Positions 44,985-63,676 of a stretch of 64,000 nucleotides of DNA are shown here, piece after piece. Under the pieces are notes generated by a model that made no database searches, was not told where the DNA came from, and saw only the letters and a list, made by a program, of their open reading frames with translations. How positions within the stretch are numbered: position 1 is the stretch's first letter; each line of letters begins with the position of its first letter. Source of the DNA: Aliiglaciecola sp. CAU 1673 (GTDB taxonomy: Bacteria > Pseudomonadota > Gammaproteobacteria > Enterobacterales > Alteromonadaceae). A program made the translations under genes and the position numbers. The stretch is from assembly GCF_029223185.1 (NCBI RefSeq), contig NZ_JARHUG010000007.1, forward strand, positions 62,001 through 126,000. Reading direction: 5' to 3'.

Positions 44985-45773
44985 TTAATCCAGCAAGGAT
45001 AGCACTTGTGCTCTCTGGATATTGGCTTGAGCCTGGACTGCGATACTACCCTGGCCGAGAATATCATTGGCGGCTCTTTGCGCCGTCGCCGCAGCAAAGT
45101 CAGTGTCTGCTATACGAGAACGCGCTGCGGCCTGACTTTCCCCCTGATTACCCAAATTACGAATCGCTGCATCTAAGCGATTCTGACCAGCGCCGAAATT
45201 GGCTCGGATATCATTAACAAAGGTTTGCAGGTTGTCGATTGTACCAAGCGCGCCTTGTGCGCCGGCCTGGTTGGAAATATCGATGCTCTGAAAATTTTGT
45301 GTGGTCAGTTCTGAGGCCACATCGCGAAGCTGAAAAGATTCGTCTTGATCGCCTAGCTGAATATTCACATCCAAATCCTGGTTAAGCAGAGGTACACCGG
45401 CGAAATTGGTATTTTGTACCGTCGTCGATACTTGTTCTTGCAACTGGCTGACTTCCGCTTGCAGCGCCTGCCTATCCCTGTCGGTCAGCGCCCCGTTACC
45501 GGCTTGAATAGACAACTCTCTGATCCGGGAAAACGCGTCGCTTACACCAGCCAAACCACTCTCGGCTGATTGCAGTAAAGAAATACCATCCTGCCCGTTT
45601 TGAATACCTCTTGAGAAGGATTCAATCTGAGATGTCAGACGGTTTGAAATTTGCAGGCCGGCGGCATCGTCTGCGGCACTATTGATGCGTCTGGCGCTGG
45701 CCAACTGCTTCAACAGATTGTTTGTCTTGTCCTGCTGCTGGACGAAGTTAGGAGCATTGCCGTCAATTCGCAT
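44985..45773 (-). CDS. Divergent small flagellin-like protein
   Basis: A 262-residue flagellin. The D1 N-terminal pattern ([25 protein letters not shown]) and the C-terminal pattern (ARSRIADTDFAAATAQRAANDILGQ, ending AQVLSLLD) are both intact, so it is not a fragment. It lacks the usual N-terminal VNTN and LNAQR residues, having MRIDGNAPNFVQQQDKTNN there, and is about 46 residues shorter than the two main flagellins. It lies apart from them, beyond the pseudaminic acid genes. It may be a minor or specialised filament subunit. Not assigned to a named gene. Confidence 0.85.
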   Translation of the reverse strand: MRIDGNAPNFVQQQDKTNNLLKQLASARRINSAADDAAGLQISNRLTSQIESFSRGIQNGQDGISLLQSAESGLAGVSDAFSRIRELSIQAGNGALTDRDRQALQAEVSQLQEQVSTTVQNTNFAGVPLLNQDLDVNIQLGDQDESFQLRDVASELTTQNFQSIDISNQAGAQGALGTIDNLQTFVNDIRANFGAGQNRLDAAIRNLGNQGESQAAARSRIADTDFAAATAQRAANDILGQGSIAVQAQANIQRAQVLSLLD

Positions 45774-45951: not shown

Positions 45952-48112
<2,161 letters not shown>

Positions 48113-48116
<4 letters not shown>

Positions 48117-48985
48117 AATTAGGCCTGGGAACGGTTCAGTTCGGGCTCGACTATGGGATTAGCAACAAGGATGGCCAAAGCTCCCTGGAAGAGGCCAAAC
48201 AAGTGGTCCAGGCTTTCTCAAAGGCGGGAGCCAAGGTTATCGATACCTCGGTGCTTTATGGCAATAGTGAAGAGGTGCTGGGTCAGGTTCTGCATGATGC
48301 ACTCCCCCTAAAAATTTGCAGCAAGATTTCTGCTGATACCGATAGCCACGGCAGCGTCGCCGGTCAAATCAAGCAATCCCTGGCCCACTTAAAGCAAACC
48401 AGTATTCATGCCTATTTGGTGCACCAGAGTAAACCACTTTTTGGCCCGCAAGGGACGAGTCGTTACCGGGAATTACAGGCAGCAAAAGAAGCCGGCTTAT
48501 GTAATAAAATTGGCTATTCGGTTTACGATCCCGATGAATTGGCATGGCTTGTTCAACGCTACCCACCGGATATCGTGCAATTGCCCCTGAACTGGTTCGA
48601 CATGCGTTTTGCCCAGCAGGGTTGGCTTCAAAAATTGGCTGATAAGGGAGTAGAAATCCACAGCCGTTCCTTGTTCTTGCAAGGCTTGTTATTGATGCCA
48701 ATTACTGAACTGCCGTCTTTTACCCGGCCTTTTCTACAGCATCTGCAAGCTTACCACCAGGCTGCAGAGCGGGCGGGCATGTCACTATTGGAAGCGGCCC
48801 TTTGCATGAGCACCAAGGTTGATGAAATCTCCGCGTTCGTGCTTGGCTGTCCCAATCTCCAGCAAGCCCAACAAATTCTTGAGGCTTACGCCCGTGTTTT
48901 ACAACAGCCCATGGATTTTTCTGCCTTTGCCTGTGAGGCCGGTGAATTAATTGACCCAAGATTGTGGCCAAAGACTCAAGCTTAG
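48113..48985 (+). CDS. Aldo/keto reductase in the pseudaminic acid operon
   Basis: A 290-residue aldo/keto reductase without signal peptide. The catalytic tetrad reads Asp44 (VIDTSVLYG), Tyr49, Lys71 (CSKIS) and His104 (LVHQSK). It overlaps pseC by four bases, so it belongs to the same operon, but the six-step pseudaminic acid pathway needs no such enzyme. It could reduce a keto group on the sugar or on an N-acyl precursor. This role is inferred from position only. The family assignment is firm. Confidence 0.88.
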
Positions 48986-49030
48986 TTTCTCCGCTGCCGA
49001 TATAACGGCATAGTCTGAAGTGAGTAGTCT

Positions 49031-49747
49031 ATGATCCTCGCCATTTTACAAGCACGCATGTCATCTTCCCGTTTGCCCGGCAAAGTCATGATGGACCTAT
49101 TAGGCAAGCCTATGATTTTAAGGCAGATTGAACGTATTGAGCGCAGCCATCTGATAGACAAACTGATTGTTGCCACCAGCACAGAACCCAGCGATGATGG
49201 TTTAGCCAAGCTTTGCGAAGATCACAATGTCCCGTGCGCCAGGGGCAGCCTCAAAGATGTGTTAGATCGCTTCTATCAGGCCGCCAGCGGCTATCATCCA
49301 GAACATGTGGTGCGTTTGACCGCAGACTGTCCGCTGGCAGACGCCAATGTGATTGACGGGGTTATTCGAAAGCATCTGCAGGTTGGCAGCGATTACTGCA
49401 GCAATGTGTGCCCTCCTACTTTTCCTGACGGTTTAGATGTGGAAGTGATGACCTATGATGCATTGGTAAGATCGCATTCACAGGCCAACTCTGACCGATA
49501 CAGAGAGCATGTCACTTTATATATGCGCGAGCATGCAGAGCTGTTCCATTTGGCCAACCTGAGTCACGATTCAGATCTTTCAAAATTGCGCTGGACAGTG
49601 GATTACCCGGAAGATTTGCAATTAGTCAGGCAAATATTCAGTGCACTCTATCCGCAGAATCCCGCATTTGATTTTCAGAATGTACTTGCTTTACTCAGAA
49701 CCCATCCAGAGTGGCAACAACTTAACCAAGCATATGTGGTGGTATAA
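49031..49747 (+). CDS. SpsF-type cytidylyltransferase, probable nonulosonate-activating enzyme
   Basis: A 238-residue nucleotidyltransferase of the SpsF (COG1861) type. The nucleotide-binding start ILQARMSSSRLPGKVM is clear, followed by VVRLTADCPLADANVID and the RWTVDYPEDLQLVRQIF segment near the end. The canonical activating enzyme PseF is of the NeuA type; no such gene is present here, so this protein probably makes the CMP-sugar in its place. It starts 45 bases after the reductase gene and ends two bases before the next gene. Confidence 0.82.
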   Translation: MILAILQARMSSSRLPGKVMMDLLGKPMILRQIERIERSHLIDKLIVATSTEPSDDGLAKLCEDHNVPCARGSLKDVLDRFYQAASGYHPEHVVRLTADCPLADANVIDGVIRKHLQVGSDYCSNVCPPTFPDGLDVEVMTYDALVRSHSQANSDRYREHVTLYMREHAELFHLANLSHDSDLSKLRWTVDYPEDLQLVRQIFSALYPQNPAFDFQNVLALLRTHPEWQQLNQAYVVV

Positions 49748-49749
49748 AC

Positions 49750-51036
49750 ATGAGCTTATCGTTCAATAATTCCAATCAGTTTTTGCAAAGGGCGCTTAAG
49801 AGTATTCCCATCGCCTCGCAGACATTTAGCAAAAGCATTTTGTCTTTGCCAAACGGCGCTGCACCACTGTTCGCAGAACGCGCCCATGGCGCCTATTTGT
49901 GGGATATTGATGACAACCGCTATATGGATTTTGTCAGCAGCTTGCTGTGCATAAGCCTTGGGTATGCCGACGAAGACGTTAACGCTGCCGTTGCCCAGCA
50001 ACTTAACAACGGCACTATCTTCAGCTTACCCCACCGTTTGGAAACGGAGGTGGCAGAGCTGCTGATCGAACTTATCCCCTGTGCACAGATGGTACGTTTT
50101 GGTAAAAACGGCTCAGATGCCACATCAGCAGCCATTCGCCTGGCCCGCGCCCATACCGGCAAAGAAGCCATTGGTGTGTGCGGTTACCATGGCTGGCACG
50201 ACTGGTATATCGGCTCTACCACCCGAGACCTCGGCGTGCCCAGCGCAGTCAAGGCCCTGACCCATAAGTTTGGCTACAACGATCTGGCCTCTTTTGAAAA
50301 GCTGATGGCCGAACAAGGCGATACGCTTGCCGCTATTATCATGGAGCCGATGAACCTGAGTTACCCGGCTCCGGGTTTTCTGGAGACCATCCGCGAAGAA
50401 ACTCGCAAGCGCGGTATCGTCTTGGTGTTTGATGAAACCATCACCGGCTTTCGCTATTCCCTTGGCGGGGCCCAAGCATTGTTTGGCGTGACGCCAGATC
50501 TGGCCACCTTTGGCAAGGGCATGGCTAATGGCTTCCCTTTAAGCGCTGTAGTAGGCAGGGAAGATATTATGAGAAGGATGGAGGATATCTTCTTCTCCGG
50601 CACTTTTGGCGGTGAAACCCTCTCGCTGGCAGCAGCCAAAGCCTGTATCCAAAAACTAAAACGGGAAAATGTCGCCGAACACTTTGTGCAGATGGGTACC
50701 ATGCTGCTCGACGGTTTGAATAAACTGATTGAAAAACACGGTGTCGGTGATTGGGTAAAAACCTGTGGTCATCCCAGTTGGAGTTTTTGTTTGTTTAACC
50801 GTCCCGGCGTGGATGCCATGTTGCTGAAATCGGTATTTTTACAGGAAATGATCGCCCGCGATGTGTTAATACTGGGCAGCCACAATATCAACTTCTCCCA
50901 CAAGACTGAGCATATTCAGCAACTTCTGGATACTTACGATACCGTGTTGCCACTGTTGGCCTCCTGGGATAGCGATCAGGCACTTAAGCAGGCACTTCGA
51001 GGTGAGCCCTTAAAGCCGGTATTCCAGGTGCGTTAA
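49750..51036 (+). CDS. Class-III PLP aminotransferase (glutamate-1-semialdehyde mutase-like)
   Basis: A 428-residue aminotransferase of the GSA-aminomutase group. PLP residues can be seen: GSDATSAAIRLARAHTG, the YHGWHDWY segment, FDETITGFR near 228 and the Schiff-base Lys256 (TFGKGMANGFP). It is not the heme-pathway HemL: the N-terminus differs and the context is sugar synthesis. It would add or move an amino group on a sugar or on a small acid that is later attached. Tightly packed between the cytidylyltransferase and pseG genes (2-base gap and 1-base overlap). Confidence 0.85.
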   Translation: MSLSFNNSNQFLQRALKSIPIASQTFSKSILSLPNGAAPLFAERAHGAYLWDIDDNRYMDFVSSLLCISLGYADEDVNAAVAQQLNNGTIFSLPHRLETEVAELLIELIPCAQMVRFGKNGSDATSAAIRLARAHTGKEAIGVCGYHGWHDWYIGSTTRDLGVPSAVKALTHKFGYNDLASFEKLMAEQGDTLAAIIMEPMNLSYPAPGFLETIREETRKRGIVLVFDETITGFRYSLGGAQALFGVTPDLATFGKGMANGFPLSAVVGREDIMRRMEDIFFSGTFGGETLSLAAAKACIQKLKRENVAEHFVQMGTMLLDGLNKLIEKHGVGDWVKTCGHPSWSFCLFNRPGVDAMLLKSVFLQEMIARDVLILGSHNINFSHKTEHIQQLLDTYDTVLPLLASWDSDQALKQALRGEPLKPVFQVR

Positions 51037-52511
51037 TGCAGGTATTGATCCGCACAGACTCCAGCAGCGCCATAGGCGGCGGTCATGTCAGTCGTTGTTT
51101 GAGTTTGGCGAACGCTATGCGCAGTGCCGGCGTCAATGTCAGCTTTATTTGTGCGGATCTGAGCGGTAATTTGATTGGCAAAATTGCCTCTGCAGGTTTT
51201 GTCGTGCATCCCCTGGCGGCTGGTCTATCGGAAGCTGAAGATTCCCGAATTTGTCAGCACATTTTCGAACAGCAGGCTACGCCTGAACAAGCCATTGATT
51301 TGCTGATAGTAGATCACTACCAGCTTGGGTTGAACTGGCAAAAATCAGTGTCTTCTTTAGTTCAGCGGCTGATGGTATTGGACGACGTCCCACAAAGACG
51401 GATTTGTGCCGATATTCTGCTAAATCAAAATGCCGGTATCGAGCGACATCAATACGCGGACTTCTTGGAAAAATCCCCTACCTTGCTGTTATTGGGCACC
51501 GAGTATGCGTTGTTGCGTTCAGATTTTTCAGATGTCCCAGCGCCAGAGCTGCAGAGTGTCTCTCATTGCCTGATCCAGATGAGCGCCACCGATCCTGACA
51601 ATACCACGCTTAAAGTCGTTAAAACGCTGATGAACAGCGAGGTGAAGATTGAATTTACCATTGTGTTGTCTTCCTCCGCCCCAGGATTAGCCTCAGTCAG
51701 AGATGCAATCGCGAGTGACAAAAGATTCACTCTGAAAGTGGATGTGGAGAACATGGCGACTCTGATGCGACACCATCAGGTTGCTATTGGCGCAGGTGGC
51801 GTGGCAGCACTTGAGCGATGTGCTGCAGGACTGCCTTCTCTGGTAACGGTGATCGCGGACAATCAACGCCCGGGGGTTCAAGCCCTTAAGGAAGCGGGGG
51901 CGATTGATGAGTTTTCATTGAATGACGAGTCTGATGACGCTCTAATCCCTTCCCTGACAGCAATCCTGGGCGATAGACCAGCCCGGGAAGCGATGCAAAA
52001 TGCGGGCAGACTGTTAGTGGATGGCAAAGGCGTCCAAAAAGTACTGAAGCAGGCCCTTCAAAGCTCTCCCAGGCGTTACTTGGTCAGGGCACAGGATAAG
52101 CCAATTCATCGGGATACCTTGCTGCAATGGCAACAAGCACCGGAGATACGGCAATTTGCCAGAAATGCTCAGCCACCAACCGCTGCAGAGCATCAAGCCT
52201 GGTATAGCAATGTACTTGCAGATCCCAACCGGTATCTGTACTTCATCTGTCAGCAAGGACTGCTGCTGGGAATGGTGCGCTTGGATTGCCAAGCCGGCGA
52301 TGAAGGTGGCGAAATATCGATCCTGACGGCACCAGGCTATCAGGGACAGGGAGTGGCAAGCGATGGTTTAAGGATGATTCGACAAACCTTACCCGGATTT
52401 CGCTTCGATGCCTTTATCAAAAAAGAGAATCTGGCATCACTTCGACTTTTTTTATCAAATGGCTATATTGCCAAAGGGGACGGCTGGTACGTCTCGACTC
52501 CGGAGAAATAA
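51036..52511 (+). CDS. pseG: PseG UDP-sugar hydrolase fused to a PseH-like N-acetyltransferase
   Basis: A 491-residue two-domain protein. Residues 1 to about 335 are PseG, which releases UDP from the diacetamido sugar: IRTDSSSAIGGGHVSRCLSLA at the start (only part conserved), a DDVPQRRICADILLNQNAG segment, and the GAGGVAALERCAAGLPSL donor-binding end. Residues about 347-491 are a GNAT domain with the acetyl-CoA loop GYQGQGVAS at 89-97 of that domain, close to PseH, which acetylates the 4-amino group. So steps 3 and 4 are in one chain. The ATG overlaps the previous stop by one base, and pseI starts right after the stop. Confidence 0.9.
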   Translation: MQVLIRTDSSSAIGGGHVSRCLSLANAMRSAGVNVSFICADLSGNLIGKIASAGFVVHPLAAGLSEAEDSRICQHIFEQQATPEQAIDLLIVDHYQLGLNWQKSVSSLVQRLMVLDDVPQRRICADILLNQNAGIERHQYADFLEKSPTLLLLGTEYALLRSDFSDVPAPELQSVSHCLIQMSATDPDNTTLKVVKTLMNSEVKIEFTIVLSSSAPGLASVRDAIASDKRFTLKVDVENMATLMRHHQVAIGAGGVAALERCAAGLPSLVTVIADNQRPGVQALKEAGAIDEFSLNDESDDALIPSLTAILGDRPAREAMQNAGRLLVDGKGVQKVLKQALQSSPRRYLVRAQDKPIHRDTLLQWQQAPEIRQFARNAQPPTAAEHQAWYSNVLADPNRYLYFICQQGLLLGMVRLDCQAGDEGGEISILTAPGYQGQGVASDGLRMIRQTLPGFRFDAFIKKENLASLRLFLSNGYIAKGDGWYVSTPEK

Positions 52512-53561
52512 ATGACCTTTCGTATTGGTAAGCATTGTATCGGCGCAGACCATCCCCCTTTTGTGATTGCCGAAATGTCGGGTAATCACAATGGTGACCT
52601 GGGCAGGGCGCTGGAGCTGGTTGAACAGGCAAAGATGGCGGGCGCTTCTGCCATCAAATTACAAACCTATACCGCCGATACCATGACCATTGATTGCGAC
52701 TTGCCGGACTTTCAAATCCAAGGGGGTCTGTGGGATGGCCGTAACCTTTACGAATTATATGAATGGGCACATACGCCCTGGGATTGGCATAAGGCCTTGT
52801 TCGAACGAGCCAGAGAGTTAGAGTTGGAATGTTTTTCCAGTCCATTCGATGAAAGTGCGGTGGACTTCCTGGAAAGCCTGGATACCCCGGCGTACAAAGT
52901 GGCCTCTTTTGAGCTGCTGGATTTACCGCTAATTGCATACATGGCAAAAACCGGTAAGCCCATGATTATGTCGAGCGGCATGGCAAATCAGGCGGAAATC
53001 AAAGAAGCCCTGACTTGTGCCAAAGACAATGGCGCCAAGGACATTGTGCTTTTGCACTGTATCAGCGGCTACCCGACACCAATCGAGCAAGCCAACTTAA
53101 TGACTATTCCAATGCTGGCTAGGGATTTTGGCTGCCAGGTGGGGCTATCCGACCATACTCTTGGCACCATCGCTTCTACCACAGCTATTGCATTGGGTGC
53201 GCGGGTTATCGAAAAGCACTTCACCCTTCGTCGTGCCGATGGCGGCCCCGATGCGGCATTCTCTCTCGAGCCTGAAGAATTTAAGCGGCTTACAGAAGAC
53301 TGCTTCGCCGCCTGGCAAGCACTGGGCAAAGCCGGCTATGAGCAACGTGAAGCGGAAAAAGCGAATTTGAAATTTCGCCGCTCGATTTATGTGGTCGAGG
53401 ATATCAAGGCGGGAGATCTGTTTACCGAGAAAAATATTCGCAGAATTCGTCCCGGATATGGCTTACATCCAAAACATTTTAAAGACATTCTGGGACAGAA
53501 AGCCCGGCGCGACTTCAGCCGGGGCGAGCCACTGGTGAAACCTCCCAAAGAGTCGAGCTGA
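52512..53561 (+). CDS. pseI: Pseudaminic acid synthase PseI
   Basis: A 349-residue NeuB-family enzyme that condenses the 6-deoxy diacetamido altrose with phosphoenolpyruvate. The barrel starts IAEMSGNHNGDLGRALEL and has KLQTYTADTMTID, SSPFDESAVDFLE, and the HCISGYPTP and GLSDHT segments. The C-terminal antifreeze-like (SAF) domain covers about 285-349 (SIYVVEDIKAGDLFTEKNI). Segment choices fit PseI better than sialic acid synthase. It is the last gene of the rightward operon; the MBL-fold gene converges on it. Confidence 0.94.
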   Translation: MTFRIGKHCIGADHPPFVIAEMSGNHNGDLGRALELVEQAKMAGASAIKLQTYTADTMTIDCDLPDFQIQGGLWDGRNLYELYEWAHTPWDWHKALFERARELELECFSSPFDESAVDFLESLDTPAYKVASFELLDLPLIAYMAKTGKPMIMSSGMANQAEIKEALTCAKDNGAKDIVLLHCISGYPTPIEQANLMTIPMLARDFGCQVGLSDHTLGTIASTTAIALGARVIEKHFTLRRADGGPDAAFSLEPEEFKRLTEDCFAAWQALGKAGYEQREAEKANLKFRRSIYVVEDIKAGDLFTEKNIRRIRPGYGLHPKHFKDILGQKARRDFSRGEPLVKPPKESS

Positions 53562-53601: not shown

Positions 53602-54939
53602 CTATCGGTGGAAAAAATAAAGACAGTGATAAAGACCCCTTTCAAAAACATCGGGTACCCTCTCGAAATGCAGATGAGAGCCAATCTCAGCATTATTCCA
53701 ATGGGCATATCTCGGCCCTTTTAGAAGCAGATCCAGTAGCCGCACATCGAGAGCAATACGCACAAAGGGCTCTTTTTCCAAGGGTTTGATATCTTTCACT
53801 GGCAGCTTTTGCGGCGACTCTGTCATGGAAAAAACGTATTCTTCATCCTGCCCAAAACTAAACATAACCCTGGTTTGGGTGGTAAAGCCTATGCCGTTTG
53901 CCATCTTGAGAAATCTTTCATAAGCCAATGCCATGTTCTCATCTAAGACGTCTTCATCAACATCCAGATTATTTTCATAGTCATATGGCAGTGTTGATAT
54001 TCTATTCATGAACTCATCAAACGATGGATGACTCAGAACCAGAGAAGCATCTTTGCTGTTGTTGTTTAAGTCCAACACTTCTCTCTGCTGAAGCAAAACC
54101 CCCTGACTTAGCGTACCAACCTCGATTTCAATATTGGCCAGGGCCAGCTGAATATTGGGAACGCCTCGAGAGACATTCAGAGTGTGAAGCTTGCCGCCGA
54201 GAATATAGGTGCCGGCAAAAGGCATAAATTGCTTTGGCCTGATCAGTTTCACAAAATTAACAGCCTGACAGATGAATTGCTTCTCCTTGCCCTCAATGGC
54301 CTTTTTCTTCTCTTCGAGCGAAGAGAAAGTAAAACACTGAGGGTAAGGACCTGCGCCAGCATAACCAACAAGCAACAGATCAATTTCCTCGTCCAGTTTG
54401 TTTGCCAAGATGGCAGCTTTGGCAAGCTCAAAAGGGCAATCATTCAGATTCAGAATTCTTTTATCGCCACTGCTAAACAATGCAAGGGTGTCTATATTGG
54501 TTTTTGAGTAGTCAATCTCCAGATCTGCACAACCAAAAAACTTGCCACACAGCTCTGGGTCGCAATTGTCTGCGGCAAATATCTGAATGAAGGAGTCCGA
54601 GTCAAAAAAGAATTTCTCGGCATTCTCACACTCGATCACTTCAAAACCGAAACTCTCGATTTTTCTCTTTAGAAAAACGGATTTGAACTTATGGATGATA
54701 ACGGGCTTTTTATGAGGGAGATGCTTGAATGTTTTTTCGCTAAGGTGGTCTGGGTGAATATGACTGACATAAATATAATCATATTCCAAATCAGCCAACT
54801 TGCTCTCGGGGAAGGGGGGGTAGTGAAACCAACTACCATGATACTCCCCCTCCGTTAGCCAGGGGTCGGTCAGGATCCTGACCCCATTCAGATCCAGTAT
54901 CTGAGTAGCAGACTGCAAATGCTGAACATGGCAACTCAT
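53602..54939 (-). CDS. Metallo-beta-lactamase-fold protein similar to the CMP-Neu5Ac hydroxylase core, without Rieske domain
   Basis: A 445-residue protein. The metal-binding motif is S-H-I-H-P-D-H at 59-65 (His60, His62, Asp64, His65). Around it, ILTDPWLTEGEYHGSWF, YIYVSHIHPDHLSEKTF, YAGAGPYP, and the QFMPFAGTYILGGKLHTLN segment follow the order and spacing of the MBL-like domain of vertebrate CMAH, which hydroxylates CMP-Neu5Ac. The N-terminal iron-sulphur (Rieske) domain of CMAH is missing, so the same reaction cannot be assumed. About 200 extra C-terminal residues are unrecognised. It is the last gene of the fliS-maf group. GGAGAG is upstream of the ATG. Function inferred to be nonulosonate related. 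Confidence 0.7.
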   Translation of the reverse strand: MSCHVQHLQSATQILDLNGVRILTDPWLTEGEYHGSWFHYPPFPESKLADLEYDYIYVSHIHPDHLSEKTFKHLPHKKPVIIHKFKSVFLKRKIESFGFEVIECENAEKFFFDSDSFIQIFAADNCDPELCGKFFGCADLEIDYSKTNIDTLALFSSGDKRILNLNDCPFELAKAAILANKLDEEIDLLLVGYAGAGPYPQCFTFSSLEEKKKAIEGKEKQFICQAVNFVKLIRPKQFMPFAGTYILGGKLHTLNVSRGVPNIQLALANIEIEVGTLSQGVLLQQREVLDLNNNSKDASLVLSHPSFDEFMNRISTLPYDYENNLDVDEDVLDENMALAYERFLKMANGIGFTTQTRVMFSFGQDEEYVFSMTESPQKLPVKDIKPLEKEPFVRIALDVRLLDLLLKGPRYAHWNNAEIGSHLHFERVPDVFERGLYHCLYFFHR

Positions 54940-54954: not shown

Positions 54955-55692
54955 TTAGGCTAGTTTTCTGAGGTACATCACCGGTTGTCGGCTTATGCTA
55001 TTGGCAACCATCTGATAACGGCTTCCACTTGCCTGCAAAAACTCGAGCATGGCCACGGTCTCGCCAGGCCAAATAGCACTGATGGCCTCGTCGAAGGCAA
55101 TAATGCCTCCCACAGCAAGTCGGTCTTCCAAAAAAGTCAAAGCGGTTTTAACGGGTTCGTAGATATCAAAGTCAATGTAGGCCAAAGAAATCAATACTTC
55201 TGGGTTGTCATTAGCAAACTGGGGAATGGTTTGATTTGCATCCCCGACGATGAGGTGAACATAATCGTCATACTGAAACATGGAGATTGCTTTTCTCAGA
55301 AGCGCTTCGTCACCACAATAGGCGCCCTGCAGTGACTTAATATGTTCTCCGTCTTTCCTATCGCCTGAAGGTAATCCTGAGAAGTTGTCAAAGCCGAGGA
55401 CCATTTTTGTGGAGTTTGGGCTAAGCAACTGGAGTGTCTTAGCCATAAACATAAGGTTCGCCCCTTTCCAGGTACCAAACTCAGCAATATGGCCAGGCAC
55501 CGACAACGTCTCTTTGAGCATCTCGTACACGGCAAGTTTATTGCCAAGGGTTTGCTCCCCTGCATATAAGGCGAAGTGGTCAATGCGCTCATACAGCCTG
55601 GGCTCACCAATCTCTTCGGCAAATTGCTTTCTGCGTTGCAGGTACTCGTTGTCGCCCCGGGAAAACTTATCCTTAAGCTCAGACAGTTTCAT
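54955..55692 (-). CDS. TylF/MycF-family O-methyltransferase
   Basis: A 245-residue SAM-dependent methyltransferase of the macrocin O-methyltransferase (TylF) family, which often methylates sugar hydroxyls. Motifs: HIAEFGTWKGANLMFMA for SAM binding near residue 70, VLGFDNFSGLP, the YIDFDIYEPVKTALTFL metal-site segment near 170, and the GGIIAFDEAI segment. The ATG at 55692 with GAGG upstream is chosen over a frame from 55704. It lies 15 bases before the MBL-fold gene. It probably methylates the flagellin glycan or its precursor. Confidence 0.83.
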   Translation of the reverse strand: MKLSELKDKFSRGDNEYLQRRKQFAEEIGEPRLYERIDHFALYAGEQTLGNKLAVYEMLKETLSVPGHIAEFGTWKGANLMFMAKTLQLLSPNSTKMVLGFDNFSGLPSGDRKDGEHIKSLQGAYCGDEALLRKAISMFQYDDYVHLIVGDANQTIPQFANDNPEVLISLAYIDFDIYEPVKTALTFLEDRLAVGGIIAFDEAISAIWPGETVAMLEFLQASGSRYQMVANSISRQPVMYLRKLA

Positions 55693-55812
55693 TAGTAACC
55701 TCATTCAGTTGTGATAGGGAGTGTCACGAAAGCCAATATAACCCTCTATGCAAGCAATTTTTAAACCATTCTTTTCATTAAAGGCTTAACCCGAAAAAGA
55801 AAGACCCTTTGC

Positions 55813-56487
55813 TTATTTGCTGTAGGGATTTTCAATAAATGCACCTTTTGTTCGTTTACGTAAAACACTCAAACCATAATTATGGTCAGGATGCCATGCG
55901 GGGTCAGAATTTATAGTCTTCTGCATTTCCAGTGAGTATGCCGGGTTCCAGAGGAACATCTTTGCGTAATCCATTTTATAGGAATGCAGGCCATGCTTTG
56001 GGGTGTAGTGGTTTTGAAAAGGCACTGTACTATAAAAATCCCAAATAATGATCCGTCCTCCATCAGCCAGAACACGATCGGCTTCGGCAGCAATTTTAAA
56101 CAAGTCTTCTCTGTCACAGAGATAAAGGCAAAAGCCAAATATCACCGTATTAAACTGACCCGCAGAGAAGGATGTCAAGTCAGAGGCGACTCCCCTGCGC
56201 AAATCGATATTCGGATAGGCCTTATTGCCCTGCTCCACAGCCAGAGCGGAGGGCTCAACACCAACACAAGTCGCATCGGCAAAGGCAGATTTTATGGCGG
56301 CAAGACGATATCCGTTTGCAGCCCCTATCTCCAAAACCTTACCAGGCTCCTCGGATTGATTAAGGAGATAAACCAGAGCTGGATCCTTTTTTACGAAGTC
56401 GTCCAGCGAAAAAGTGGTATCAGATGAAGTGTTACGCAAAAACCAGGCATCGGCTTCGCCTGCCATGAAAGACTCTTTTTGTTTCAT
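55813..56487 (-). CDS. Class I SAM-dependent methyltransferase
   Basis: A 224-residue methyltransferase (Methyltransf_11/25 type). The pattern AGEADAWFLRN at the N-terminus, SAM motif VLEIGAANGYRLAAIK near residue 50, and the FCLYLCDREDLFKIAAEADRVLADGG segment are typical of methyltransferases in nonulosonate and flagellar sugar clusters. It starts three bases after the maf gene. The ATG at 56466 has a better ribosome site (AAAGAG) than the one at 56487, so the true protein may be seven residues shorter. A 120-base gap separates it from the TylF-type gene. Confidence 0.8.
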   Translation of the reverse strand: MKQKESFMAGEADAWFLRNTSSDTTFSLDDFVKKDPALVYLLNQSEEPGKVLEIGAANGYRLAAIKSAFADATCVGVEPSALAVEQGNKAYPNIDLRRGVASDLTSFSAGQFNTVIFGFCLYLCDREDLFKIAAEADRVLADGGRIIIWDFYSTVPFQNHYTPKHGLHSYKMDYAKMFLWNPAYSLEMQKTINSDPAWHPDHNYGLSVLRKRTKGAFIENPYSK

Positions 56488-56490
56488 GGT

Positions 56491-58575
56491 TTACTCGAAC
56501 TCCACATAGTCCAACATTTTTGCATACTTTTTCTTGGCGTCCTCAATATAACCCCGCCATAGCTCCAGGGCCTTATCAGTATATTCAAGCATCTTCTTCT
56601 CTTCTTTAAAAGAAAAGATAAAAAGTCGCAAAACAGCATGCACATAAGAGATCGTGCCATTAAATACGAAGTAAATATGTCTATTTTTTGTTTTATAAAA
56701 GGAATTAACATAATTCGATTGATGATATAAAGCTTCCGTTAGTTTATCCCTATTTTTAAACGGGCCTTTTATCTGGTCCAACAACACATCGCACACTTCT
56801 TCAAAAAGAGGAATATTGACAACATTCATATATTCTTCAGCAGTGATCCCTGAAGAAACAAAGGCACTCTTTTTTATCCAGTCAATTATTGGTTTCTTAT
56901 TCAGAGGCCTTGTTAAAAGGATATCGTCAGGATTTACCGGATATGTCCCTCTCAACAGTGCGCCATCTGAACAGTTATAACGATGTCTGGCTGGCTCTGA
57001 TTGGATAGCTTGCTCCAAGAAATAGCGACAGGTATCCAGTGTCCTGTTGGTTATTATCTTTCCACCAAAATTACCCGGCACCTCAAACTCATTAGTCGAT
57101 ACTGTATCTCCAGCGTGTAATGTTTCCCCTTTTTTAGATTTTTGATAATACGCACTTGCCTTTGAGTGATGATTTCCTCTGTCCCGGTAGCCGTTATCCA
57201 CACCGAAAAGATAGATATCGTCGAATCCTAAATACTGGGAAATTACCATGCCAGTGTTAGCTACCAAAGGATTGCAATAATAAAAGTAACGAAACTTAAT
57301 GTCGCGATCAAAATTGGCGTTTATCAGAGAAACGCATGGCTCGCCCATCTTCAGACCACAGCCGCTCCAGGCGAAGAGATCGTGGCAAGCAGGATGTAGA
57401 AGATTCACCGTTAGCAGATTTACTTTTTTTAGTATCTCATGATCTACATAATTGTTAAGAACATCGAAAGTCAATTTCGTACGCTCTAACTCCACATGAA
57501 AATCCGGGACGATTCCATATTTAACCAAAGAGGTTATGGCTGTCCCCATCGAAATGACAATGGCATTGTCCTGATGGGCTCTAATATGCTCAATACAGGT
57601 ATCCAAAGAGGGACCATTGGCGATCAAAAATACGGGAGTGTCAGGAAATTCTTTGGATAAGTCAGTACCATTTTTCATAAACGGGATATCCCGTTTTAGG
57701 CTGTGGTATGTGTGTGCAAGGCTTAAGACGCTATCGTCGAAAAATCCCCATCCTGCACCAAGGACCGCGAAATCTTCACTGACCTGGTTAATAAGCTTAC
57801 GGATATTTTCAGTTTGATAATGAAGATAAAGATAAGAAGCACAGGCATGATATGATCCTTTCTCATGTAAATCATTAAACAGGTCATTCGTTATATCTTT
57901 ATATTCCACCCCAATATTTAAAACAATATGGGTATTATCCTTATCAACTTTTTCAAGAATTCTGAACCAATCTGCTGTGTATAAGCTCGCGTAAAACACG
58001 TCATTATTTGGTTCAATAATATATAGATTTTCTATTGTGAGCTTTTCAATCAACTCTTCTATATGATATCCCAAACCACTTCCAAAAACGAATAACGTAC
58101 CGACTCTTTTTGGCAATGTTTCCAATGGTTCAAGGACTTCAGATGCCTCTTCATAAAGGCCATAAATTCTATTCATATATTCCACATGAATAAAATTCTC
58201 TGGATTTTTTTCGTTGCTGGTGAAGGTTATTTCGGAGCGAAAAGGTTTCTTAAAAAACTGCTCTACCTGCTCATGGCACTCTTTGAGAGGATCCTCACCA
58301 TATAAGGGAATACCCGTACTGGACTCAACAACATTGATGACGCCAGACGCCGTAGCAAACATTTTCAGTTTATCCGACTTGTAGTCCTTAAACTGCTTGT
58401 GAATCTCAGGCATATGCTTCTCAAATGCTTTGAGATTCTTTTGGAACTGCTCAGGCATCAAGCGGTCAAGCTGGCGAGCCGCATCGATACGTCCCTTGGC
58501 TGCGGTAGCCATCTCTGTGACGCGCTTTTCCAAGGCTTCGAGATTTTGCTTATTACTTGTCTTTTTTGTCGTCAT
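56491..58575 (-). CDS. Motility-associated factor, Maf-type flagellin glycosyltransferase (DUF115)
   Basis: A 694-residue protein of the MAF_flag10 (DUF115) family, which transfers pseudaminic or legionaminic acid to flagellin. The family centre is clear: VFLIANGPSLDTCIEHI near residue 330, VISMGTAITSLVKYGIVPDFHVELER, and LFGVDNGYRDRGNHHSKASAYY. The N-terminal region is a helical and mixed domain with FVFGSGLGYHIEEL. The gene is clearly AT-richer than the operon neighbours, which suggests a different history. The ATG lies 23 bases inside the end of the fliT-like gene, so the two are translated together. Confidence 0.9.
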   Translation of the reverse strand: MTTKKTSNKQNLEALEKRVTEMATAAKGRIDAARQLDRLMPEQFQKNLKAFEKHMPEIHKQFKDYKSDKLKMFATASGVINVVESSTGIPLYGEDPLKECHEQVEQFFKKPFRSEITFTSNEKNPENFIHVEYMNRIYGLYEEASEVLEPLETLPKRVGTLFVFGSGLGYHIEELIEKLTIENLYIIEPNNDVFYASLYTADWFRILEKVDKDNTHIVLNIGVEYKDITNDLFNDLHEKGSYHACASYLYLHYQTENIRKLINQVSEDFAVLGAGWGFFDDSVLSLAHTYHSLKRDIPFMKNGTDLSKEFPDTPVFLIANGPSLDTCIEHIRAHQDNAIVISMGTAITSLVKYGIVPDFHVELERTKLTFDVLNNYVDHEILKKVNLLTVNLLHPACHDLFAWSGCGLKMGEPCVSLINANFDRDIKFRYFYYCNPLVANTGMVISQYLGFDDIYLFGVDNGYRDRGNHHSKASAYYQKSKKGETLHAGDTVSTNEFEVPGNFGGKIITNRTLDTCRYFLEQAIQSEPARHRYNCSDGALLRGTYPVNPDDILLTRPLNKKPIIDWIKKSAFVSSGITAEEYMNVVNIPLFEEVCDVLLDQIKGPFKNRDKLTEALYHQSNYVNSFYKTKNRHIYFVFNGTISYVHAVLRLFIFSFKEEKKMLEYTDKALELWRGYIEDAKKKYAKMLDYVEFE

Positions 58576-61227: not shown

Positions 61228-62154
61228 TTAACCCAGCAGAGACAAGGCTGTCTGAGGACGCTGATTTGCCTGAGCCAATATTGAGGTACTGGCCTGTTGC
61301 AAAATTTGCGCCTTGGTCAAGGCAGCGGTTTCTGCTGCAAAGTCGGCATCACGAATACGTGACTGTGCAGCGGACAGGTTTTCTGAAATATTCGACTGGT
61401 TACGGATGGTAGAGGCAAAACGGTTTTGCACTGCACCTAACTCCGCACGTTTACGGTCAAACACTTCAATCATGGCATCAACAGCGTTAAGTGCTGATTG
61501 GGCGTTAGCCTGAGATGTCAGAGAGAAAGCGGTTCTGGCAGCAAACACCGTTGCAGCGCTAGCCTGACCGGAAGTCGAAAGAGAACCGACGATACTGGAC
61601 ACAGACGCAGCGATTTCACTTAACTTAAAGCTAGCAACAGAGTTTTGGCTGCCATCGAAGCCCTTTACTGCAGTCATGGTAAAGCTGATGGTTTGGTTAG
61701 CATCTGCGCCTACCTGGAAGCTGGCAGAATAAGTACCATCCAACAACTTCTGACCACCGAAGCTGGTGTCGCCTGCGATACGGTCGATTTCAGTCCACAA
61801 CTGGTCGATTTCCAGTGCAATGGCCTGACGGTCCTTATCGGTGTTGGAACCGTTAGCAGCTTGCGCCGCCAGAGTACGAACCCGTTGCAAAGAGTTGGTC
61901 ACCTCATCCAAGGCACCTTCAGCAGTCTGTGCCAGAGAGATGCCATCGTTGGCGTTACGGATCCCCTGGTTTAGACCGTTGATTTGACCAGTCAAGCGAC
62001 TGGTGATTTGCATGCCTGCCGCGTCGTCAGCAGCGCTGTTGATACGCAAGCCTGACGACAAACGCTTAAATGCGGAATCCAACTGGCTGCCTGAATTAAG
62101 CAGTTGGCGTTGAGCATTGAGCGAAGACACGTTGGTGTTGACAAATAAAGCCAT
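61228..62154 (-). CDS. Flagellin (main type, copy 1)
   Basis: A 308-residue flagellin with full D0/D1 domains ([14 protein letters not shown] at the start, [18 protein letters not shown], and at the end [22 protein letters not shown] and ALSLLG) and a short middle, so the outer D2/D3 domains are reduced. The middle (residues about 150-230) is rich in Ser, Thr and Ala, where Maf-type glycosylation usually occurs. TAGGAGG lies just before the ATG. A sigma-28 promoter is about 190 bases upstream, behind a structured leader. Nearly colinear with the second copy at 62747. Confidence 0.96.
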
Positions 62155-62181
62155 GTTAGCCTCCTAAAATTTTCACTCACT

Positions 62182-62244
62182 CGGGTACTCCGTTTCGGAA
62201 TCCACCCGACCAGCATCTTTAAGACAGGGGGAACCAATTCCCTG
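62182..62244 (-). promoter_or_regulatory. Structured leader of flagellin copy 1
   Basis: Two stems lie between the predicted start of transcription (about 62335) and the ATG at 62154: CGGGT (62182-62186) with ACCCG (62204-62208), with an inner CCG/CGG pair, and CAGGGGGAA (62225-62233) with TTCCCTG (62238-62244). The long folded leader may stabilise the mRNA or control translation. Confidence 0.45.
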
Positions 62245-62341
62245 CCGGTATGATGATTCCGGGTTATTTCCTGAACCGAAACACCCCGGTGAAGCAATCG
62301 AGCTCGTGTCCCAAACACAGGTTAGATTAGCCTCATATCTG

Positions 62342-62368
62342 TTAACGGCACCGATTCCCGAAGCTTTA
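62342..62368 (-). promoter_or_regulatory. Sigma-28 (FliA) promoter of flagellin copy 1
   Basis: Reverse strand TAAAG (62368-62364), 14 bases, then GCCGTTAA (62349-62342). This is a perfect match to the Vibrio-type sigma-28 consensus. The leader would be about 180 bases long. Confidence 0.9.
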
Positions 62369-62696
62369 GGGCTGAATTTAAAATATTTTCGCCAAAAAAC
62401 GTAAGAAGCTGATTTTATTCAATTTTTACTTATGAAAAATCTTCAGGCAATAGCGGCAAAGATTGCCGCCAGGGGACAGACAGAGGTCGATAATGGAGAC
62501 TAAGCAATATCGCCGAAAGCTGAATGTCCCTTTACTAAATAAGAACAGGGCTTTTATGCAATAGGCTCAGATTTACCTGGAGCAAAGTGAAACGTTGGAG
62601 GCAGGGCAATGGACCGAAGAACCGCCAAGTGCTTAATGCAGATGCACGGACGTTTTCTATCGCCAAAAATTTCGGCATACCGTTTATCTTGGACAT
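62369..62696. other. Intergenic DNA between the two flagellin genes
   Basis: About 330 bases without a gene. It contains a second, weaker sigma-28-like box (TAAAG and GGCGATAT, 62534-62507, with a 15-base spacer) and a small GGCAA/TTGCC hairpin near 62453-62467. No frame here is convincing. Confidence 0.5.
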
Positions 62697-62719
62697 AAAA
62701 AAGCCCGCTTGCGCGGGCT
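62697..62719 (-). terminator. Intrinsic terminator of flagellin copy 2
   Basis: AGCCCGC (62702-62708) and GCGGGCT (62713-62719) form a perfect stem; read leftward it is followed by a run of six U (62702-62697). Confidence 0.9.
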
Positions 62720-62746
62720 AATGAGCTAGTGCTCAGGAGGCGGTTA

Positions 62747-63676
62747 TTAACCTTGCAGTAGAGAAAGCGCGGCCTGTGGACGCTGATTGGCCTGAGACAG
62801 AATAGTTGTACTGGCCTGCTGCAGAATCTGCGCTTTGGTCAGCGCTGCGGTCTCTGCCGCGAAGTCGGCATCACGAATACGTGATTGAGCAGCCGACAGG
62901 TTCTCTGAAATATTTGATTGGTTACGGATGGTGGATGCAAAACGGTTCTGAACCGCACCCAACTCCGCACGCTTGCGGTCAAATACTTCAATCAGGGCGT
63001 CTACCGCGTTCATTGTTGACTGCGCGTTGGCCTGTGATGTTAACGAGAAGGCCGTTCTTGCTGCAAATACCGTTGCTGCACTGGCTTGTCCGGTTGTCGC
63101 CAAAGATCCTACGATACCTGATACTGCGGCTGCAATATCGCTCAACTTAAAGCTGGTGACGGAATATTCACTGTTATCAAAACCTTTCACCGATGTCATG
63201 GTGAAGCTGATAGTTTGGTTAGCATCGGCACCCACCTGGAAAGATGATGCATAAGTGCCGTCCAACAGTTTCTGTCCGCCAAAGGTAGTGTCGTTGGCGA
63301 TACGGTCGATTTCTGTCCACAGTTGATCAATTTCCTGAGCAATCGCCTGGCGATCCTTATCGGTGTTTGAACCGTTAGCTGCCTGAGCGGCCAGGGTACG
63401 AATACGCTGCAATGAGTTAGTGATTTCGTCCATTGCACCTTCGGCTGTTTGCGCCAAAGAAATACCGTCATTGGCGTTACGGTTGCCCTGATTCAGACCA
63501 TTTATCTGAGAAGTCAAACGGTCGCTGATTTGCAAACCGGCGGCATCGTCGGCAGCGCTATTGATCCGCAAACCTGAAGACAGACGCTTGAAGGCTGTAT
63601 CAAGCATTTGGCCTGAGCCCACCAGTTGACGTTGGGCGTTTAAAGCAGATACGTTGGTGTTTACATATAATGGCAT
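62747..63676 (-). CDS. Flagellin (main type, copy 2)
   Basis: A 309-residue flagellin, nearly colinear with the copy at 61228, differing mainly near the N-terminus ([20 protein letters not shown]), in a few central residues and by a final Gly (SLLQG). Intact D0 and D1, short centre. AGGAGAAC lies nine bases before the ATG. It has its own sigma-28 promoter and its own strong terminator, so it is a single-gene unit. Both copies are likely targets of the Maf transferase. Confidence 0.96.

Follow-up and report, generated by a model that had tools for sequence, protein, structure and literature searches.

CMP-Neu5Ac hydroxylase (CMAH), in which an N-terminal Rieske [2Fe-2S] domain is combined with a metallo-beta-lactamase (MBL) domain, is presented in a 2016 review as a likely oxygenase with no structure reported at that date (PMC4819959). 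That O2 can be activated on an MBL fold is evident from CmlA, a beta-hydroxylase (PMC7785958), and from the diiron monooxygenase FrsH. In both, a CmlA_N domain precedes the MBL domain. The protein described here belongs to an unstudied, dispersed family of metal enzymes related to CMAH, an animal enzyme of sialic acid modification, and encoded repeatedly within pathways for sialic-acid-like sugars in bacteria, archaea and phages; both this kinship and a link to genes for nonulosonates (NulO) are well supported. The window, meaning the whole stretch of 64,000 nucleotides that was analysed, carries the gene on its minus strand as an ORF for a 445-residue MBL-fold protein (hereafter the MBL protein), with the following features.

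53602..54939, minus strand: CMAH-like MBL-fold protein without a Rieske domain, 445 amino acids (ORF, Pfam, alignment, AlphaFold2)
54745..54762, minus strand: HxHxDH metal-binding motif, residues 60-65 (48/48 core members)
54529..54570, minus strand: DNCDPELCGKFFGC insert, residues 124-137, with D124, C126, C131 and C137 (48/48 core members)
54436..54450, minus strand: NxNDC motif, residues 164-168 (core-member alignment)
53605..54042, minus strand: C-terminal conserved domain, about 146 amino acids (family alignment)

The motifs DPWL (residues 25-28), SHIHPDH (59-65), YAGAGPYP (193-200) and QFMPFAGTY (237-245) were found in the order for which the preliminary description had likened the protein to CMAH, and 12 residues (D25, W27, W37, P41, Y57, S59, H62, G98, N164, P200, A242 and G420) were identical in 64/64 aligned rows, an agreement far beyond chance. 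Pfam returned Lactamase_B_3 alone, at 25.1 bits against a cut-off of 24, with no match to a Rieske domain. Modelling with AlphaFold2 on the 64-row alignment gave a mean pLDDT of 93.0 and a pTM of 0.92 (a single-sequence run gave a pLDDT of 35), and in both Pfam and the model the MBL domain begins at the N terminus of the protein. The protein is probably cytoplasmic, and searches with PADLOC and PHROGs gave no match to it.

The relationship to CMAH was examined with a profile of the family. Against a provisional mouse CMAH sequence, which did not come from a database, this profile scored 88.5 bits, mainly over the MBL part, while the best of 50 shuffled sequences reached 0.9; the score is best read as a pointer and not as a proof. 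The CMAH-like MBL core suggested in the preliminary description is supported. The two are collinear over about 280 profile positions and, as far as the provisional sequence goes, share the motifs DPWL, SHxHxDH, D-x3-P, Nx(2)DC and PF(A/P)G; a NulO context is common to both. Unlike CMAH, however, the MBL protein has no N-terminal Rieske domain, its family is prokaryotic and viral, and it contains a cysteine-rich insert that the provisional CMAH sequence lacks. The absence of the Rieske part, claimed earlier for the window protein, extended to 64/64 family members scanned at E<=0.01 (the window protein and 63 of the 80 genome loci), and no fused Rieske motif was seen in 80 homologue ORFs, five of which are incomplete owing to frame breaks or the end of a contig. 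The protein is not classed as a CMAH, since it was searched for a Rieske domain and has none, although it may still work like one.

The C-terminal region of about 200 residues had been regarded as an extra part. That description does not fit the family, in which an alignment of 28 members shows the C-terminal 150 or so residues to be conserved. They are also weakly collinear with the C terminus of the provisional CMAH sequence (hhalign score of 26.6 over 42 columns, compared with 8.8-14.6 for five shuffles), the match including W..IG..R.PD. No significant Pfam or PDB sequence match was obtained for this domain, and its identification as SCP2 was rejected for want of Pfam or PDB support. In a genome from the same family as the window genome (G412), a 120-residue frame matches profile positions 333-441 only (E 1.5e-16); it may be a remnant, a frame cut at a contig edge, or the C-terminal domain encoded on its own.

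Among relatives that do carry a Rieske domain, the nearest found were actinobacterial Rv3818-like proteins, in which the MBL domain is followed by SCP2_Rv3818 and then by a C-terminal Rieske domain. An hhalign comparison of the two families reached 99.9% across 379 columns, the partner alignment consisting of four similar rows, and both families have the same MBL motifs. Of the four Rv3818-like proteins two, L006 and L103, were scanned for domains (a split copy, L105, was left out), and both carry SCP2_Rv3818 and the C-terminal Rieske domain, whereas neither domain was detected at E<=0.01 in 64/64 members of the MBL family. The Rv3818-like proteins also lack the cysteine insert of the core family, no NulO genes were annotated in the flanks read around L006, L103 and L104, and the C-terminal halves of the two families gave no signal above shuffles. 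With an Rv3818-like query, the window genome was the sole match among 249 Pseudomonadota (E<=1e-10). The Rv3818-like genes L006 and L102-L105 are located on actinobacterial plasmids, and the annotation splits the Microbacterium copy, L105, into three pieces.

Among proteins of known structure, the best profile match was FrsH (8a90; 37.2 bits, E 1.3e-8, positions 1-108), with further matches to SaxA (27.8 bits), a Veillonella hydrolase and CmlA (E 5.5e-4); the top matches cover about the first 95-120 positions. CmlA and FrsH share the MBL fold and both rank high in Foldseek. They differ from the MBL family in the CmlA_N domain, absent from 64/64 family members scanned, and in their substrates. 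A search of 150 Pseudomonadota for CmlA_N returned none, the controls likewise giving none.

Homologues were sought in one genome each of 84,980 species, and 80 loci were kept of the 106 relatives found. These are 26-51% identical to the query, mostly over nearly its whole length, and include by record title 26 Halobacteria, 25 Alphaproteobacteria, 6 Bacilli and 5 Nitrososphaerota. The core members, 32-50% identical, come from Rhodobacterales, Bacteroidota, Bacilli, SAR11, Thaumarchaeota and haloarchaea, and full-length homologues with 34-36% identity were found on six haloarchaeal plasmids. In 398 sampled Pseudomonadota, six matches passed E<=1e-10: that of the window genome and five partial ones. 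The main alignment (A3) comprised the window protein and 63 of the 80 genome loci, leaving out four frame-broken copies (L067, L068, L075 and L083), the fragment L058 and 12 others judged redundant; a second alignment (A4) took 47. In a tree made by a quick method without bootstrap, 49 of 65 rows, the window among them, formed one clade (SH-aLRT 95). The window's nearest rows were Marinagarivorans algicola (L011) and an alphaproteobacterial MAG (L012; SH-aLRT 98), and the haloarchaeal rows formed one clade (SH-aLRT 100).

In the window, the gene lies between flagellar and pseudaminic acid (Pse) genes as follows.

56491..58575, minus strand: Maf flagellin glycosyltransferase (Maf_flag10_N 207.4 bits)
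55813..56487, minus strand: class I SAM methyltransferase (Methyltransf_25 42.7 bits)
54955..55704, minus strand: TylF-type O-methyltransferase (Pfam TylF 53.9 bits), 15 bp upstream of the MBL gene
52512..53561, plus strand: PseI pseudaminic acid synthase, NeuB family (PseI equivalog 521.8 bits, cut-off 340)
51036..52511, plus strand: PseG-PseH fusion, UDP-sugar hydrolase and GNAT (PseG equivalog 247.2, cut-off 153.6)
49750..51036, plus strand: class III aminotransferase, GSA-aminomutase-like (profile matches)
49031..49747, plus strand: cytidylyltransferase, CTP_transf_3 (Pfam)
48113..48985, plus strand: aldo/keto reductase, KidO-like (profile matches)
46971..48116, plus strand: PseC-type DegT aminotransferase
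45973..46974, plus strand: PseB-type dehydratase (Polysacc_synt_2)

The PseH part of the fusion scores below its cut-off, and the class I methyltransferase has a weak match to TIGR03587 (29.7 bits, below the cut-off of 112). The preliminary description had placed the gene in a flagellin-glycosylation operon. This holds for the neighbourhood, since maf, two methyltransferase genes and the Pse genes do adjoin, but not for the operon, because the MBL gene is convergent with the Pse operon, with 40 bp between the stops, and stands outside it. Its own run is maf, methyltransferase, TylF and MBL, with gaps of 3, 108 and 15 bp and the MBL gene last; upstream of Maf, the minus strand continues with an ORF of 121 residues that Pfam does not match, followed by FliS, FliD, FlaG and two flagellins. 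The G+C content of the stretch from Maf to the MBL gene is about 0.39-0.46, compared with about 0.47-0.53 in most flanks. The MBL protein had no match in 58 relatives searched, four of them of the same genus, the family profile had none in those four, and Maf matches in four other genomes of the genus were only 29-31% identical. The Maf-to-MBL stretch looks like an exchangeable part of a flagellin glycosylation island.

The minus strand also has a lone short flagellin gene at 44985-45773, shortly ahead of the Pse operon and away from the other two flagellins at 61228-63676. Within the operon, the aldo/keto reductase and cytidylyltransferase genes adjoin (48113-49747). EpaA, a phage-encoded protein of 8-epi-pseudaminic acid synthesis, is a fusion of these two kinds of domain (PMC12053666), and by analogy the window operon may make an epimer of pseudaminic acid.

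The connection of the gene with nonulosonates, proposed from the window alone, was found to recur in several lineages and on phage contigs. PseI/NeuB was detected by tblastn with the window genes in 17 of 86 loci. Whole-genome NeuB searches covered 50 of the 80 genome loci, and in 12 of these 50 NeuB lay within the flanks, compared with 0.30 expected from genome size and copy number and a maximum of 6 in a million simulations, under a model that treats the loci as unrelated. On the tree the NeuB-in-locus state requires at least 12 changes, many flanks being cut by contig ends. A strong NeuB match was present in 33 of the 50 genomes, or 34 at the family cut-off; a weak match in G467 (2e-9) was scored as absent. 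NeuB was present in all 14 bacterial isolates (status by record title; these include four Cohnella and five Rhodobacterales and are hence not independent), compared with 71 of 150 sampled Pseudomonadota, and the eight non-haloarchaeal genomes without it are MAGs or single-cell genomes by title.

Over 82 of the 86 loci, with the four frame-broken copies left out, 79 co-directional direct neighbours were listed, of which NeuB was the commonest (5; L015, L017, L022, L025 and L085), followed by DUF1616 (4), TylF, TrcR, glycosyltransferase 2 and GNAT (3 each) and formyltransferase (2). A methyltransferase gene adjoins the MBL gene in the window, L011, L066 and L081 (TylF in each) and in L012, L038 and L053 (other types); in the Marinagarivorans copy, L011, the TylF gene is directly upstream and its product is 54% identical to that of the window. 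N-acetyltransferase and formyltransferase genes adjoin in some loci. The literature on Pse clusters, as represented by titles and abstract beginnings outside subscription journals, contained no mention of an MBL protein, and the words 'lactamase' and 'Rieske' do not occur in three Pse/NulO papers (PMC3765264, PMC13317340 and PMC7371886).

The active-site residues are invariant in the core family. H60, H62, D64, H65, N164, N166 and D167 were identical in 48/48 core members; NxNDC is what we take to be MBL motif 4, and PFAGTY and D124 presumably occupy the sites of the fifth motif and of motif 3. One interpretation of these data, which we prefer tentatively and with slightly less than even confidence, is that the protein is a CMAH-lineage MBL metalloenzyme of a Rieske-free branch that tailors a nonulosonate before Maf acts on it, most likely by O2-dependent N-acyl oxidation. 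In the window the substrate would be pseudaminic acid, either as CMP-Pse or as the free sugar, before its transfer by Maf onto flagellin. An iron site formed by H60, H62, D64, H65 and D167, perhaps together with D124, could carry out an oxygen-dependent oxidation of the N-acyl group, from acetyl to glycolyl as in the CMAH reaction, and the TylF-type O-methyltransferase, whose gene is 15 bp from that of the MBL protein, would have a natural acceptor in the hydroxyl so created. Oxidation of the N-acyl group is favoured on account of the kinship to oxygenases, the NulO clusters and the neighbouring methyltransferase, N-acetyltransferase and formyltransferase genes. The family's host groups are mostly known for aerobic life, which would fit an oxygenase. 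N-glycolyl is among the glycan abbreviations in two papers on Tannerella forsythia (PMC5600126 and PMC6120980), and O-methylated flagellin glycans are reported from Shewanella (PMC3765264). A Rieske-free bacterial relative in NulO clusters would allow direct tests of the questions of structure and oxygenase activity that surround CMAH.

Electrons for such a reaction might come from a separate carrier or by way of C126, C131, C137 and C168. A motif scan of the called genes of 86 loci revealed no conserved electron-transfer partner. Rieske genes that looked real by eye occurred only in L009 (petA-like) and L032, for which reason supply of the Rieske component by a neighbouring gene was rejected, and ferredoxin-like motifs occurred only in L058 and L070.

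The cysteine set itself is a property of the core family. D124, C126, C131 and C137 were identical in 48/48 core members and C168 in 44 of 48, the exceptions being Val in three and Ala in one. The insert, DxC(D/N)PxxC-x5-C, marks the core family and co-varies with the Cys after the catalytic Asp: of the 16 non-core members in the alignment, 14 have gaps at D124 and C126, eight have His in the C137 column, and 12 have Asn and two Cys at position 168. The two non-core exceptions are L078, which retains the insert motif with Ala at 168, and the degenerate L087. Core-type viral copies kept C126, C131, C137 and C168 in 11 of 11 cases, with D124 missing in two, while the four other distinct viral copies lack the insert and have Asn (three) or Cys (one) at 168. 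As the insert and C168 co-vary, the four cysteines are suggested to form one site beside the MBL metal site. Doubt is cast on this arrangement by C137, which lies in a stretch of low confidence in the AlphaFold2 model (residues 135-145, pLDDT < 50), by Val or Ala at 168 in four core members, and by Ala168 in L078. Such a site might accommodate either an Fe-S cluster or a metal with a structural role. A precedent is Tflp, an MBL protein with cysteines near a diiron centre that holds an Fe-S centre when reduced (PMC7785958). A bolder form of the preferred reading, which we consider quite unlikely, sees in the family the counterpart of CMAH in prokaryotes and phages, with an internal four-cysteine Fe-S or metal site, directly adjoining the MBL iron site, in place of the fused Rieske domain: a self-contained oxygenase that would make N-glycolyl-type nonulosonates for subsequent capping by an O-methyltransferase.

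The viral copies bear on the alternative that survives best. On viral contigs 19 loci were found, which reduce to 15 distinct ones; NeuB is present in 15 of the 19 and, counting distinct loci, in 11 of 15. Three of the 15 records (L106, L107 and L120) have a gene for a T4-type major capsid protein, and the other 12 are taken as viral on the classification given by the collection. Among 14 viral loci that were clustered, PseB-type genes were found in nine, PseC-type genes in six and the cluster holding the CTP-transferase of L107 in eight. In L107, the one locus in which the whole cluster was named by Pfam, the NulO genes encode PseB, PseC, GNAT, NeuB, a CTP-transferase and an MptE-like protein, without a recognisable PseG or NeuC. 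The occurrence of the MBL gene in the NulO cassettes of T4-like phages points to phages as further carriers of the MBL step; phage-encoded Pse-modifying enzymes of another kind, EpaA and EpaB, are known (PMC12053666). A Foldseek library of viral structures gave three matches at E<=0.001, two unnamed and one a putative exonuclease.

MBL folds are mostly hydrolases, and it is possible, though doubtful, that the protein serves the NulO pathway as a metal-dependent hydrolase, which would release UDP from the six-carbon sugar (the PseG/NeuC step) or remove an acyl or phosphate group. In the viral clusters it would then stand in for PseG. PseG (TIGR03590) and Epimerase_2 were matched by none of the 15 viral records, although NeuB is present in 11 of the 15 distinct viral loci, while the same search of cellular genomes found PseG in 16 of 32 at E<=1e-5, seven of them above the cut-off; the NeuB-bearing L010, L013 and L014 and the single-cell L076 and L080 also match neither. 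Viral NulO clusters without recognisable PseG or NeuC fit a hydrolase, but the step could be supplied by the host, the records could be incomplete fragments, or an enzyme could have escaped recognition, the MBL protein being one candidate. Moreover, PseG accompanies the MBL gene above the curated cut-off in the window, L022, L025, L029 and L038, and below it in L053, L081, L085 and L086, and with matches in the window and eight loci a plain PseG substitute everywhere was rejected. The PFAGTY motif contains no His, and an Asp stands at the place of motif 3, which also speaks against a hydrolase as far as the usual roles of these motifs go, although the other conserved histidines, H83, H422 and H444, could serve.

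An unlikely alternative is that the family acts on surface sugars generally, on a nucleotide sugar or glycan other than a nonulosonate, so that the NulO link in the window would be one context among several. NeuB was found in just 4 of 13 haloarchaeal genomes, 12 of them isolates by title, yet four of the six haloarchaeal plasmid copies (L002, L003, L004 and L007) are accompanied by glmS/glmU/glmM, glycosyltransferase or Gfo/Idh genes; L005 and L008 are without such neighbours. Four of five Rhodobacterales copies (L010, L013, L014 and L020), as well as some from SAR11, adjoin housekeeping-type genes instead of glycan genes. Confinement of the family to NulO operons is therefore not supported, and because 9 of the 13 haloarchaeal genomes lack NeuB, a nonulosonate cannot be the substrate of every member. 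Nevertheless, the NulO link is seen repeatedly, both within the core clade and beyond it (L076, L080, L081, L085 and L086) as well as on viral contigs, NeuB is present in every bacterial isolate tested, and the haloarchaea, as one clade, may have switched substrate. Neighbours shared by the Rhodobacterales copies include TrcR, with recR- and dnaX-like ORFs, named by eye, in L010.

The best Foldseek matches were MBL folds of many kinds, with no CMAH among the 50 PDB matches listed; among them are NAPE-PLD, small MBL proteins from Thermotoga and elsewhere, and the entries 2wyl/2wym, taken here as UlaG. SaxA and UPF0173 have the same fold in shorter chains of 227-269 residues, and the UPF0173 protein Igni_1254 scored 11.1 bits by profile. 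That the protein is a lactonase of the UlaG type, or some other common MBL hydrolase with no relation to the adjoining glycan genes, is very improbable despite these structural matches and a Lactamase_B_3 score just above its cut-off, for the profile comparison proposed in the preliminary description placed no entry named UlaG among 15 PDB matches at E<=10 and scored the provisional CMAH sequence higher, the NulO context recurs across loci, and the conserved C-terminal domain has no significant sequence match in PDB or Pfam.

Degenerate and frame-broken copies were also observed. In Halorubrum aidingense an intact gene (L041) and a degenerate paralogue (L087, 10001-11362), which has lost HxHxDH and the cysteine insert, lie on one contig, and the frame-broken copies were found in Cohnella ginsengisoli, Halorutilus salinus, Cohnella rhizosphaerae and Halolamina pelagica.
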